A stretch of 64,000 nucleotides of DNA, taken from assembly GCA_025054715.1 (NCBI GenBank), contig JANWYH010000001.1:122001-186000 (forward strand), in the 5' to 3' direction. A program made the translations under genes and the position numbers. Below, piece by piece: positions 21,396 through 29,735 of the stretch. Source of the DNA: Pyrinomonadaceae bacterium (GTDB lineage: Bacteria; Acidobacteriota; Blastocatellia; Pyrinomonadales; Pyrinomonadaceae). A model generated the notes under the pieces. It did no database searches and was not told the origin of the DNA. It was given only the letters and a program-made list of their open reading frames with translations. Every line of letters starts with the position of its first letter. Position 1 is the first letter of the stretch.

Positions 21396-23582
21396 TCATT
21401 CAGTTTTGGACTTCTTAGAAATCTCGAATTCTAAAACCTGCAGCCACTTTTCTATTTGCCTTTTTTCCGATTCAGAGAGTTTACGTTTGCCAAAACGGAC
21501 TTCGTTGTATTTTTCGGTGATTTTTTTAGCTTCTAAAAAGCCAATGGCTAAGGCAAATTCCATCGGAGTTTGGGAAAATTCACGTTTGAGACCGTTTCTT
21601 TCAAGTATTTTCACCATTTTGCTATAAAACTCAACATCGCAATCTGTCTTCGCATTTGAGAGTTTGCTTTTTAGCTTCAAAAGTAGCTCTGAAAATCTCA
21701 GTTTTCGATAGATCACACTAAAAAACCATATTGCGAGTAGGGTTAAGCCTAACAATGAGACAGCTTTTATGATAGCAATTAGACTTGCCTTAATGCCTCT
21801 TTGCCCTATTAAATCTTGCCACCATTGGGATAAAAGACCAACAATTGTTTTTGCTTTTTCACTTAAGAATTGCCGTGCTTTTCTTATCTGCGTGTAAAAG
21901 TTGCTCATTAAGGATTTTTGTTCTTGACTATCGTAGCTTACTACATATTGAATCCATAAAGCTTCAAGGGCTTCAAGATAGCGACTAAATTCTAAAACGA
22001 TGTTTGTCTGATCTAGTGACGGCATTTGCCTTCCAGCCGCTGGAGTCGGATCGAATGCTATCCAAGCATTTTCGCGAGGGAAATAAACCTCTACCCATGC
22101 ATGAGCATGTTTTTGCCTAACTATATACACATCGGCTGTTTCATTATATTCGCCACTTTGAAAGCCCGTAGCGATTCTTGTAGCAATGCCTTGAGTTCGA
22201 AGCATCACGGCCATTGCGCTTGCAAAGTATTCACAGTGTCCTTCACGAACATTGAAAAGAAAGTCCGCTAAAGGTTCGCTTCCACCCGCCTTAAGATCGA
22301 GCGTGTATCCGAAGTTTTCTTGTAAGTATCTTTCGATGGCTCTAGCTTTGTCATATCGGTTTGTTGCATTGGCTTTTGATATAATCTCTTCGGCCAAGCT
22401 AACTATGCGAGGGTCAATTCTATCAGGGAGTTGAAGGTAACGGTAATGGCTAAAAGAGTATTGAGAGTCATCACTTCTTAATCTTTCGATGCTTGGAGCA
22501 GAAATATCCGAAAGAACCTTGTAAGAAAAGCGCTCTGAACCAACGCGGGCTACACTTACAGCTCCTTCAGCATCCTTGTTTATCAGCTTAAATGGACCTT
22601 GAAAGGCAACAGGTCGCCATAGAGAGAAAAGCACAGGCGTATCTAAGGGTTCTAAATAAACGGTTTGAGAGATCAAATTTGAGGCTTCTGTTGCTCCATC
22701 AACCACGAAAAAATCTTGTTCCGTTTTAATAAATGGCTCAGTGTAGTTTCTTCGAGTTCTATACCAGCTTATATTGTCGAAGTAATCAAGCGCCATTGCT
22801 CGCCATTTTATATCGGGGACTTGACGATCAACGCGGACTCTCATGACGACGTCGTTACTTTGCTGAATACGAGCTATTTGTCCTAGTCTTATAGAATCAG
22901 AAAAACCCGTTGTAAGTCCACCACCAAGATTAGCCCCAAATCCGGCTCCGCCAACGCGAGGAAGTGTAAAAAACAAAGGCACAGATAGGAAGACAGTAGA
23001 AAAAAGAAGTGCAGCTGCTACAGCGAACAGTCTATAGTGGGACTTTCCTTCAAAAGAGCTTACCGCTTTGGAAATGAGGGTCATCTTTCTTATTTCAAAG
23101 CAGATGATAGCGCAGATGATAAAGAAAAGATATATAAGTAGCGATAGAATAAACAAAGGGCTTATACTAAATCCTGCAGATAGAAGGACTTGAAAAAACG
23201 ATGTGAGATAAATGAAAAACCAGTCTCGGTTACTCTTCTTTTGCAAGAGTTTGATTGCTGTAAGTGTTAAGATCATCTTTGCAAGGCTACTTGCCATTGC
23301 AACTTCTCTTGCCGAAGAGCCGAGTTGATACCTCCAGTCAAGATAAAATATCGGCAAAAAAACGAGAATCAGAATTAAGCTGAGCCTTTCGGATATTTGT
23401 TTTTCAGAATCTTCAATTCGCCATGCAATCAAGAATATGAAAGCAAAGATTGTTCCGAAAAAAAGGTTAATACCGCCAGATGTAAGCAATGCAAACAGTC
23501 CACAAAAGGCTGTCATGTAGGAGCTTAATCTGAACAGCCTTTCAAAATTTGAATTTATTTTTGTGGGTTGCAATTTTTGCAT
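21396..23582 (-). CDS. TgpA-like membrane transglutaminase-domain protein
   Basis: About 728 residues. The N-terminal part has some six hydrophobic helices (DUF3488-like, to about residue 200), then a periplasmic segment with the transglutaminase core: the Cys in EGHCEYFASAMAVMLR, the His in HAHAWVEVYF and the Asp in WIAFDPTPAAGR. A further transmembrane helix near 620 and a C-terminal DUF4129-like cytoplasmic tail follow. This is the layout of TgpA proteins, thought to act on periplasmic or cell-surface proteins. ATG 23582 is preferred; a TTG at 23624 would overlap the upstream gene by 35 bases. It is downstream of the exonuclease/pseudopolymerase gene on the same strand. Confidence 0.9.
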   Translation of the reverse strand: MQKLQPTKINSNFERLFRLSSYMTAFCGLFALLTSGGINLFFGTIFAFIFLIAWRIEDSEKQISERLSLILILVFLPIFYLDWRYQLGSSAREVAMASSLAKMILTLTAIKLLQKKSNRDWFFIYLTSFFQVLLSAGFSISPLFILSLLIYLFFIICAIICFEIRKMTLISKAVSSFEGKSHYRLFAVAAALLFSTVFLSVPLFFTLPRVGGAGFGANLGGGLTTGFSDSIRLGQIARIQQSNDVVMRVRVDRQVPDIKWRAMALDYFDNISWYRTRRNYTEPFIKTEQDFFVVDGATEASNLISQTVYLEPLDTPVLFSLWRPVAFQGPFKLINKDAEGAVSVARVGSERFSYKVLSDISAPSIERLRSDDSQYSFSHYRYLQLPDRIDPRIVSLAEEIISKANATNRYDKARAIERYLQENFGYTLDLKAGGSEPLADFLFNVREGHCEYFASAMAVMLRTQGIATRIATGFQSGEYNETADVYIVRQKHAHAWVEVYFPRENAWIAFDPTPAAGRQMPSLDQTNIVLEFSRYLEALEALWIQYVVSYDSQEQKSLMSNFYTQIRKARQFLSEKAKTIVGLLSQWWQDLIGQRGIKASLIAIIKAVSLLGLTLLAIWFFSVIYRKLRFSELLLKLKSKLSNAKTDCDVEFYSKMVKILERNGLKREFSQTPMEFALAIGFLEAKKITEKYNEVRFGKRKLSESEKRQIEKWLQVLEFEISKKSKTE

Positions 23583-23589
23583 TTTTTCA

Positions 23590-25350
23590 CTAAAAGCTCC
23601 AAGACTCAGACTCTCTGCTTTCAACGCGAATGGGCACGGAGTTTATAAATTCCTCACCTGCCTTTTTCATTACTTCTTTAGTCAGATCGGAAATTTTTTT
23701 CGTTTCATCGGCATAACATTCAATTAAATATCCGTGTTGGAAAAGGTGAATAATCCTAGCCGATGAGTTTTTGAGATTTTTATCAAGAAGATACAAACAG
23801 TGCTTGAATATATCTGTTGAGAGAGCTTGAGCATGGAAGCTGCGAGCGTATCTCTTGGCAGACTTTCTTTTCTCCTCTGTGTCAAATTTTAACTTGCATA
23901 TTCTGCCTGACGTCGAACGGCAGATTTTTTCCTGCTCGGCTTTTTGCGACAAGCTTTCAAGCCATTGCCAAAGTCTCGGATAAAGTGCGAAGAATCTTCT
24001 AAAGAGCTCTTCGGCTTCTTCGGTGCTTATTCCGTTCAGTTTAGCTAAGTAAGAAGCTCCTGCGCCGTAAATAACGGCGTAGGACAATCTTTTTGTAAGT
24101 AACATGTGTTCTTCGGTTAGCTGCTCGGAATCAAGATTAAAAAGTTTCGTTGATAGCGCTATTTGAAAGTCTACGTTATTCGTTAGAGTGTTTATTAAGT
24201 CTTTATCTTGGGAAAGCTCTGCAAAAGCACGGAATTCCAGGTCCGGGTAAAACGCTAAGATGAGCTTCTTGTTTTCTGGGGCTACGAGGCATTTGCGATA
24301 TTCTAGGGGAAGTTGGTAAAGGTTAGGTTTGTAGCACCTTATGTTTCCTGAGAAAGTTGCGATTTGTTTGTAATCTGGATGAAGTCTTTGAGTCTGTGGC
24401 TTTATCAGTTTAAGAAAATCCTCGCCGAACTCGGATAAAAACTTCTCAGTTTCTAAGTATTCTAAAAACATAGAAGCTGTCGGATTAGTTGCGGCTAACG
24501 TTCTAAGTTCCTTTTGCAAGCTCTTTGAAGAAGCTGAGATTCCCAAAGCAGAGCGGACCTGATTTTGATCGTTGATGTCTATTTCGGCATTCTTCGAGAA
24601 AAGAAAGTTTTGAGAGTTTAGATTCGAGATATTTTTTTTAAGATTTTCTGATAAGTCAAGTTTTTTTTGTAATGTTTCATTTAAGTTTTTTTGCCACGAC
24701 GTCAGATCAACGTAAATTCCATTCATTTCTACGTTTGAGAGCGGTGTAATGCAATTAAATTCTATTTGTGCTGTTTTTGTTAAAGCTTCGCGCATCAGTT
24801 TTTCTTCTATTTGTTTGCCTAGTCTGAAAGCTACAACGGCGTCTGTAGCAGCGTATTTTAGTTGCGATTCTGTAAGTTCCGACGAGCTCCAGTCGGATTT
24901 TTGTTCGCTTTTATCTAACTCAAGGCCAAGAAAAAATTGGGCTACTTCTGCGAGACTATGTCTTTTTTCTTGATCGCCTGAATGAAGTAGCTGGCTTGCT
25001 AGCATGGTATCGAAAATTCCGCCTAATTCAACCCCTAGATGATGCTGAATCCACTTGGTATCAAACTTTGCGTTGTGAATGAATTTTGTTTTCTCTTTAT
25101 CTTTGAGAATTCTTCTTAAAGGTTCGAGCATTTCATTTTCTTTTAGGCTTCCATTTTCGGCAAAGTAGATTAGATCAACGACGATAGTAGCTTTGCTATT
25201 GCTGAGCTGAATAAGTCTTAAACTTCCTTCATGAGGATCGAACCCTGTCGTTTCTGTGTCGAGTCCTAAACAATCTTCGGATGAAAATTTTTCTTCGCAG
25301 ACTCTCTTTAGATGCTCGCCATTCTTGACTAGTTCAAAATAAACTTCCAT
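23590..25350 (-). CDS. DnaQ/RNase D-like 3'-5' exonuclease fused to a degenerate family A DNA polymerase domain
   Basis: 586 residues. The exonuclease domain (about 1-190) has all DEDDy residues: Asp31 and Glu33 (LDTETTG), Asp97 (HNAKFD), Tyr166 and Asp170 (YAATD). From about 325 the protein follows the PolA fold (IRCYKPNLYQLP, IYGAGASYLAKLNGIS, HAQALSTDI), but catalytic positions are changed. Motif A reads LAFYPDLEFR where LADYSQIELR is expected, so the metal-binding Asp is Phe367. Motif C reads QHGYL where VHDEL is expected, so its Asp is Gly540. In the O helix Lys420 and Tyr428 remain, but the upstream Arg is Met. There is no 5' nuclease domain. Predicted: active exonuclease, inactive polymerase that may still bind DNA. 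Confidence 0.9.
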   Translation of the reverse strand: MEVYFELVKNGEHLKRVCEEKFSSEDCLGLDTETTGFDPHEGSLRLIQLSNSKATIVVDLIYFAENGSLKENEMLEPLRRILKDKEKTKFIHNAKFDTKWIQHHLGVELGGIFDTMLASQLLHSGDQEKRHSLAEVAQFFLGLELDKSEQKSDWSSSELTESQLKYAATDAVVAFRLGKQIEEKLMREALTKTAQIEFNCITPLSNVEMNGIYVDLTSWQKNLNETLQKKLDLSENLKKNISNLNSQNFLFSKNAEIDINDQNQVRSALGISASSKSLQKELRTLAATNPTASMFLEYLETEKFLSEFGEDFLKLIKPQTQRLHPDYKQIATFSGNIRCYKPNLYQLPLEYRKCLVAPENKKLILAFYPDLEFRAFAELSQDKDLINTLTNNVDFQIALSTKLFNLDSEQLTEEHMLLTKRLSYAVIYGAGASYLAKLNGISTEEAEELFRRFFALYPRLWQWLESLSQKAEQEKICRSTSGRICKLKFDTEEKRKSAKRYARSFHAQALSTDIFKHCLYLLDKNLKNSSARIIHLFQHGYLIECYADETKKISDLTKEVMKKAGEEFINSVPIRVESRESESWSF

Positions 25351-25395: not shown

Positions 25396-25425
25396 TTGAC
25401 AGGTTTAATTTTTAAGCAATATCAT
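25396..25425 (+). promoter_or_regulatory. promoter for the LysW-like gene
   Basis: TTGACA (25396-25401), 18-base spacer, then TATCAT (25420-25425; 5 of 6 matches), about 60 bases before the start codon in the divergent gap next to the exonuclease gene. Confidence 0.6.
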
Positions 25426-25485
25426 AAAACTTTTCTGCTGCATTCTGTTTTAGGAAAACCTAAAAACCAAAAAAGGAGATGGGAA

Positions 25486-25701
25486 ATGTTATCAGGAATC
25501 TGTCCTGAATGCGAAGAAGAAATCTATGTTGACGAAGACGCCGAAGAAGGCGACATCGTAGATTGTGAAGAGTGTGGAGCTAGGTTAGAACTTCTCAGCC
25601 TTTCTCCCGTCGAGTTTGTGATTATTGAGGATGAATATGAAGACTATGACGACTCAGATTTTGACTACGAAAGTTATGACTATGAAGACGATCGTTATTG
25701 A
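25486..25701 (+). CDS. LysW-like zinc-binding small acidic protein
   Basis: 71 residues, very acidic. The first 45 match the amino-group carrier protein LysW: CPECEEEI, then DIVDCEECGARLELLSLSPV, giving Cys6, Cys9, Cys27 and Cys30 for one zinc. True LysW ends in EDWGE, whose terminal Glu carries the lysine or arginine intermediates. Here the end is replaced by a Tyr/Asp/Glu-rich tail ending DDRY. It therefore cannot serve as the standard carrier and no lysine genes are nearby. ATG 25486 has a strong AAAGGAGATGGGAA upstream. Its stop overlaps the tail of the convergent VWFA gene by a few bases. Confidence 0.78.
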   Translation: MLSGICPECEEEIYVDEDAEEGDIVDCEECGARLELLSLSPVEFVIIEDEYEDYDDSDFDYESYDYEDDRY

Positions 25702-28499: not shown

Positions 28500-29735
28500 T
28501 CAGTCGTATGCTCCTGAGATTAGTTTAGCTCTTACTTCTTCAAGGCTTGCGCCTTTTTCGAAACTTGTGCGTATTTTTTCCATCTTCTTTGAACTATATT
28601 CGGGTTTGGCATAAGTGCTGACTTGCTCATAATTTAGTCCTCTTTCTAATCCCAGTCTTATTTGCTGCATTTGCCACACGTCATAATTACGATTAGCGTA
28701 TAGACTTACTTGTTCGAGACTTAGACCGTTTTCGAATCCCAGTCGTATTTGCTCCATTTGCCATGAGTTGTACTCAGGCTTTGTATACAAGCTTAATTGT
28801 TCTATACTTAAATTCTTTTCGATTCCTAACCGTATCTGTTCCATTTGCCAAGGTCCATAGTCTGGTTTTGCGTATAAACTTACTTGTTCGATAGTTAATC
28901 CTTTTTCAAATCCCAGAAGTATTTGTTTCATTTGGTGTGCACTGTATTTCTGATTTGAACAAAAAATTACCTGCTCCAGAGTCAGACCTTTTTTGAATCC
29001 CAATCTTATTTGTTCCATTTGTTCTGGGTCATGTTCAGACTTTACATAGAGGCTTACCTGCTCGATGGTTAAACCGTCCTCAAGTCCTAGTCGTATTTGC
29101 CGTATTTGTTCTGAACTGTATTTGTACTCTGCGTAAAGACTTATCTGCTCTAAAGTCAGACCCTCTTTTAATCCTAGTCTTATTCGTTCCATTCGCTCTG
29201 AGTTATATTTGGGTTTTGCATAAAGGCTAACTTTTTCAATAGTTAGTCCTTCTTCGTATCCCATTCGTATTTGTTCCATTTGCCGTGCACTGTATTCAGG
29301 CTCTGCGTAGAGGCTTACCTGCCGGATGGTCAATCCTTTTTCAAGTCCGAGTCGGATTTGTTCCATTTGCCATGCACTGTATTCAGGCTTTGCGTAGAGG
29401 CTTACCTGCTCGATAGTCAGCCCGTTTTCAAATCCAAGTCGGATTTGCTCCATATTTTCCGATTCATATTCAGGACTGGAATAACGCATTACTTTTCTTA
29501 GGCTTAAACCATTTTCTATTCCCAAAAGTATTTGATTTGTTTGCTTTGGGTCGTATCCGTTTGATAAGAAAGCAGAGTACAAATCATCTCGCTTATGCTT
29601 TTGGTAGCCACTCTGATTAGAGTAGTCTTCTAGTTTTCTCATTAATTCTTTGGGAAGGTAAAAATGGGACTCTTGTGATTCTGATTTTTCACTGCTAACT
29701 AATGTTTTATCTCTGAACTTTTTCTCCTGCGTCAC
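28500..29735 (-). CDS. tandem 29-residue repeat protein of unknown function
   Basis: 411 residues. After about 60 N-terminal residues (polar, with YLPKELMRKLEDYSNQSGY) the protein consists of 12 repeats of 29 residues with the consensus PEYSxxQMEQIRLGLExGLT followed by IEQVSLYAK; the last unit degenerates. Each unit should fold as two short helices, giving an elongated superhelical binding surface. I recall similar QM-xx-IR-x-GL repeats in proteins of Firmicutes and their mobile elements, but cannot verify it. No signal peptide or catalytic motif. Start is GTG with AAAGGAG upstream, and a TATAAT at 29808-29813. It lies beside two tRNA genes, a common integration site, though no integrase is seen. 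Confidence 0.8.
   Translation of the reverse strand: MTQEKKFRDKTLVSSEKSESQESHFYLPKELMRKLEDYSNQSGYQKHKRDDLYSAFLSNGYDPKQTNQILLGIENGLSLRKVMRYSSPEYESENMEQIRLGFENGLTIEQVSLYAKPEYSAWQMEQIRLGLEKGLTIRQVSLYAEPEYSARQMEQIRMGYEEGLTIEKVSLYAKPKYNSERMERIRLGLKEGLTLEQISLYAEYKYSSEQIRQIRLGLEDGLTIEQVSLYVKSEHDPEQMEQIRLGFKKGLTLEQVIFCSNQKYSAHQMKQILLGFEKGLTIEQVSLYAKPDYGPWQMEQIRLGIEKNLSIEQLSLYTKPEYNSWQMEQIRLGFENGLSLEQVSLYANRNYDVWQMQQIRLGLERGLNYEQVSTYAKPEYSSKKMEKIRTSFEKGASLEEVRAKLISGAYD

Follow-up and report, generated by a model that had tools for sequence, protein, structure and literature searches.

Loss of polymerase function with retention of a linked nuclease is documented in family X, where noncanonical PolX proteins have lost residues of the polymerase and dNTP sites, keep a linked 3'-5' exonuclease, and in experiments showed exonuclease but no polymerase activity (PMC9226535). 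They carry a PHP nuclease, occur in several phyla and are linked to end joining (PMC9226535). Inactive polymerases also exist in family Y, where ImuB binds the processivity clamp (PMC9226535). For family A, no precedent for polymerase loss was found in the literature searched, whose partial coverage makes this weak evidence of absence, and a 2026 survey of polymerases in bacteria lists, in its accessible part, inactivated exonucleases of family A and no inactivated family A polymerase domain. In Actinobacteria, PolA2/APEX is a second family A enzyme without a 5' nuclease; it combines a dead exonuclease with a live polymerase and carries, within the exonuclease domain, a QxxLF pentapeptide that was called the first clamp motif of a bacterial A-family polymerase (PMC12926913). 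The clamp also functionally affects E. coli Pol I (PMC6010275).

The protein described here is encoded in the window, the whole 64,000-nucleotide stretch of Pyrinomonadaceae DNA analysed, which comes from a 2.45 Mb draft genome that is 99% complete. It descends from within the bifunctional exonuclease/polymerase group NF011539 (PRK14975) and shares the two-domain plan, length and DEDDy site of the active Blastocatellia orthologues in that group, which, unlike it, keep all polymerase residues. Its best solved relatives in sequence and fold are apPol and Aquifex Pol I, both built on the same exonuclease-polymerase plan, with Klenow also among the best. Noncanonical PolX is the closest functional parallel; the present case differs in belonging to family A, in its DEDDy nuclease, in its restriction to one genus and in the absence of a detected Ku. 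PolA2/APEX is a mirror image, since in the window protein the exonuclease is intact, the polymerase is dead and the clamp-type motif lies in the thumb, which places it outside APEX. ImuB and other inactive Y-family polymerases likewise present a polymerase fold without catalysis, but they belong to a different family, serve as scaffolds and have no nuclease. Our favoured reading, held at about even odds, is that the window protein is a polymerase-dead, clamp-docked 3'-5' exonuclease, a family A counterpart of noncanonical PolX.

Polymerase and exonuclease sites

The gene occupies positions 23590..25350 on the reverse strand, as do all features of the protein given below, and encodes 586 residues in a frame confirmed to be uninterrupted. 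The predicted union of a DEDDy exonuclease with a family A polymerase domain is borne out by both Pfam matches: the 3'-5' exonuclease domain (residues 7-185, 24796..25332) scores 137.4 bits against DNA_pol_A_exo1 (PF01612, cut-off 23.6), with conservation like that in active homologues, and the polymerase domain (residues 232-585, 23596..24657) scores 173.9 bits against DNA_pol_A (PF00476, cut-off 34.3). A 5' nuclease is absent from the frame. Against the NF011539 equivalog (cut-off 640), the protein reaches 396.3 bits and its congener 286 bits; active orthologues score 602-650, some of them 602-630. An AlphaFold model built with 58 sequences (pLDDT 94.2, pTM 0.91) is Klenow-like and superposes on Klenow and apPol with TM 0.84-0.88, the match to the apPol fold being 0.88. 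Together with the PF00476 match this places the domain in the family A fold, a claim resting on the homologues that drive the model, since the two genus members by themselves gave no successful prediction.

In family A enzymes, the Asp residues of motifs A and C bind the catalytic metals. Here the site was compared with 104 distinct homologues from outside the genus, 103 of which reach motif C. In motif A (LAFYPDLEFR, 24229..24258), Phe367 replaces the metal-binding Asp, and in the O helix (24067..24108), Met416 replaces the Arg; each lost residue is present in 104/104 homologues, and both substitutions agree with the original prediction. Preceding motif A, Asn336 stands for the invariant Arg of TGR (24343..24345; Arg in 104/104), and Ser504 stands for an invariant Asn (23827..23841). 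Motif C (23719..23745) had also been predicted to lack its Asp and Glu, with Gly540-Tyr541 in their place. The double loss holds, but the assignment was one residue off: IIHLFQHGYLIE pairs without gaps with homologue sequences of the LVNIVHDEIIVE type and with apPol IILCVHDEIIIE, so that His-Asp-Glu, present in 103/103 homologues, corresponds to Gln538-His539-Gly540, and Tyr541 does not occupy the Glu position. In an independent alignment with apPol, Phe367 lies opposite D410 and His539 opposite D579, the two catalytic Asp of that enzyme (PMC12529929). Further invariant or near-invariant residues are replaced by Asp370 (Gln of DYSQ), Ser423 (O-helix Asn) and Ala509 (Gly of QG). The three catalytic changes, in motif A, motif C and the O-helix Arg, occur in none of the 104 homologues, and with Phe367, His539-Gly540 and Met416 the protein falls outside the active family A polymerases.

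Residues kept at the site include Glu372, the O-helix residues Lys420 and Tyr428, Arg500, Gln508 and Glu544. Persistence of Glu372, Lys420, Tyr428 and Gln508 could be taken as a sign of continued polymerisation at an unusual site; since both metal-binding Asp, Glu of motif C and Arg of the O helix are lost and neither Asp position has an acidic residue, this is most improbable. Equally slight is the chance of an assembly error or of a pseudogene caught early. Draft assemblies in both species would allow for it, but the changes consist of numerous in-frame substitutions spread over distinct invariant sites, the exonuclease half is normal, and the independently assembled congener is also defective and has the same upstream genes. 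A local frameshift does not explain the changes either, because the other reading frames around motifs A and C contain stops or no motif.

In the exonuclease domain, D, E, D, Y and D are present in three motifs: Asp31 and Glu33 in motif I (25252..25260), Asp97 in motif II (25060..25062), and Tyr166 and Asp170 in motif III (24841..24855). All five align with invariant homologue residues, in keeping with the intact site first proposed. The domain resembles ribonuclease D weakly (TIGR01388, 74.9 bits, below the cut-off of 298.95). This similarity, and the lack of any other intact PF01612 protein in the source genome, would fit a protein whose nuclease has turned chiefly to RNA and whose polymerase shell serves to bind RNA or hybrids. 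Such a role is unlikely, as models of polymerase-linked exonucleases score far above the RNase D model and the congener genome has a separate, small, RNase D-like PF01612 protein; active homologues match RNase D models equally well, so no shift toward RNase D is visible.

Loss and residual constraint within the genus

The genus comparison comprises one other species, whose protein exactly matches that of MAG J014 (RFGC01000043.1; L027, L063). In this congener, motif A reads LDYPLLEVA, six O-helix residues including the Arg are deleted and the Lys is replaced, and motif C has RDQ for HDE. Conservation of the Phe and Gly changes among relatives, which the original prediction put forward for testing, is therefore not observed: the congener keeps both metal-binding Asp, and its losses fall on Arg and Lys of the O helix and on His and Glu of motif C. 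The window protein is nevertheless no lone exception, as the only congener compared is polymerase-defective too. Loss is thus genus-level, with a different course in each lineage and no fixed new motif. The two proteins share the Pro after DY/FY, the Ala for the Gly of QG and the loss of the O-helix Arg, which suggests that the loss began in their common ancestor, both Asp being lost in the window lineage alone. In the tree, the pair nests among active homologues. The surveys of class and phylum are samples; in the 197 genomes sampled from the phylum, four homologues lie outside the class, and all are intact.

The two halves of the protein evolve at different rates. The window and congener proteins are identical at 55.6% of exonuclease positions, at 29% of those in the thumb region and at 30% across palm and fingers, against medians of 49%, 51% and 58% for active pairs. 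On a fixed tree, the branch length of the pair relative to the remaining tree rises from 0.074 in the exonuclease to 0.326 in palm and fingers, and the terminal polymerase/exonuclease rate ratios of the two proteins, 4.5 and 2.8, are the top two of 46 (next 1.78, median 0.66 among the others). In this pair, the polymerase domain evolves at 3-5 times the rate of the exonuclease, and elsewhere it is usually the slower of the two; fast change is confined to the thumb and polymerase part, and the contrast indicates that constraint has been relaxed on the polymerase only. Decay of the whole gene is contradicted by exonuclease conservation and by the open frame.

Constraint on the polymerase part persists in relaxed form. 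Between the window and congener genomes, 37% of fourfold sites in Pol I agree (random expectation 26%), and a neutral simulation with 0.25-1 substitutions per site predicts 10-18 stops in the polymerase part; both frames are open despite these near-saturated silent sites. Of 69 hydrophobic palm and finger positions, 64 and 62 are kept in the two proteins. A charge shift toward stronger DNA binding was not seen in the polymerase part. The same data bear on the main rival of a clamp-docked exonuclease, in which the protein would be a stand-alone 3'-5' DNA exonuclease and its polymerase part passive ballast, heading for loss and without a clamp role. The accelerated change, as in a decaying domain, and the different sets of residues lost in the two lineages would be expected of ballast, but roughly 400 residues kept in frame in both lineages and the retained hydrophobic positions would not.

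There is good support for the substance of the original proposal, a pseudo-polymerase whose exonuclease is intact: the polymerase site is dismantled, the exonuclease shows normal residues and a normal rate, and both species have an open frame. Loss of both Asp as its hallmark does not extend to the congener.

A candidate clamp motif at the thumb tip

New here is a putative QxxLF-type beta-clamp pentapeptide at the thumb tip of the exonuclease-polymerases. In the window protein it is QNFLF (residues 247-251, 24598..24612), located in the least confident loop of the model, an accessible, flexible thumb-tip loop between helices 216-246 and 262-269; T7 DNA polymerase has its thioredoxin-binding insertion at roughly the corresponding position. 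QxxLF (QASLF, QGSLF, QMSLF, QLSLF and others) occupies this one slot in 93/104 homologues and occurs only 2 times elsewhere in these proteins (61,216 aa). It is found in 0/32 Pol I sequences, and the full motif is absent from the homologues examined outside the class. The congener has QVSFF at the slot, a weaker match that is not strictly QxxLF.

Given a pentapeptide of the right type, in an accessible loop and conserved among orthologues, the QNFLF loop is probably a docking site for the beta clamp. Its Q, L and F are kept although the flanking thumb is just 12-20% identical to homologues, which also speaks against a passive polymerase part. By shuffling of this one protein, the motif arises by chance in the thumb slot in 0.3% of shuffles, so its retention in the window protein alone is modest evidence. 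Because the polymerase part changes fast and the congener's motif is imperfect, the ballast alternative stays alive, and we assign it a real but minority likelihood. For a clamp-docked exonuclease, the motif points to a more specific guide than the general DNA or RNA binding first suggested for the retained domain, where a clamp motif was not mentioned. With the copying site destroyed and the trimming site and putative clamp tag kept, the protein is probably a dedicated trimmer of DNA ends.

Cell context and proposed role

The search for a second, complete polA in the genome, proposed with the original prediction, yielded a canonical Pol I on another contig with ADYSQLELR and HDEL intact. Its proofreading (3'-5' exonuclease) site is dead, a condition shared throughout the class: the exonuclease motifs of Pol I are degenerate in the sampled Blastocatellia genomes and the polymerase motifs are intact in 32/32 (L128-L159). 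The class therefore appears to split these duties, Pol I carrying out synthesis without proofreading and the exonuclease-polymerase bearing the DEDDy site; in the window genus, only the DEDDy half of the latter survives. A beta clamp (DnaN) is present in the source genome. Three other settings were considered and rejected. The protein is not the main replicative proofreader in place of an absent DnaQ, since the genome has one DnaQ-type exonuclease; end joining as for PolX is not indicated, no Ku having been found in the source genome; and no second exonuclease-polymerase copy supplies the lost function, the search turning up only canonical Pol I.

Upstream of the gene, the order of an acidic zinc-ribbon protein and a VWA protein is common to window and congener only. 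The first is a small, divergently transcribed zinc-ribbon-like protein with a very acidic tail (25396-25701, forward strand; L027:1061-1360, reverse strand, in the congener), followed by the VWA-domain gene. Downstream, a transglutaminase-like frame (21396-23624, reverse strand) shares 35 bases (23590-23624) with the 3' end of the exonuclease gene when its first TTG is taken as the start; a later start is possible, and no such neighbour was found beside the homologues examined. At 28500-29735 (reverse strand), a 411-aa protein consists of about 10 imperfect repeats of about 36 residues (MEQIRLGFEKGLTIEQVSLYAKPEY...). Among active orthologues, L038 (G008), L041 (G026), L040 (G004) and L127 (G072) carry intein-like insertions at two sites. 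Site 1 lies inside motif A (IADY^C...HN^SQVELR in L038) and site 2 just before it at GRFxC (C...VHN^C in L041 and L127, and the start of one in L040), suggesting that the gene is an intein hot spot within the family.

In the proposed mechanism, the ancestral state would be a clamp-associated exonuclease-polymerase of the kind found across class Blastocatellia. We infer that DNA synthesis was lost in the window genus and that the protein was kept as a dedicated 3'-5' exonuclease. Docking on the beta sliding clamp would go through the thumb-tip QNFLF loop, what is left of palm and thumb would hold the primer-template without extension, and the 3' end would be handed to the intact DEDDy site and trimmed. 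Plausible clients are the cell's own proofreading-dead Pol I or 3' ends at clamp-loaded gaps. That a family A polymerase has in this way become a clamp-tethered exonuclease, proofreading in trans for a proofreading-less Pol I or another clamp user, is a speculative and rather doubtful extension.

In conclusion, sister genera with active orthologues, two proteins inactivated in different ways and a proofreading-less Pol I in the same cells together provide a natural experiment on the role of the exonuclease-polymerase. The candidate clamp motif at the thumb tip of the active, class-wide enzyme would be a separate claim, on how second family A polymerases may reach DNA ends.
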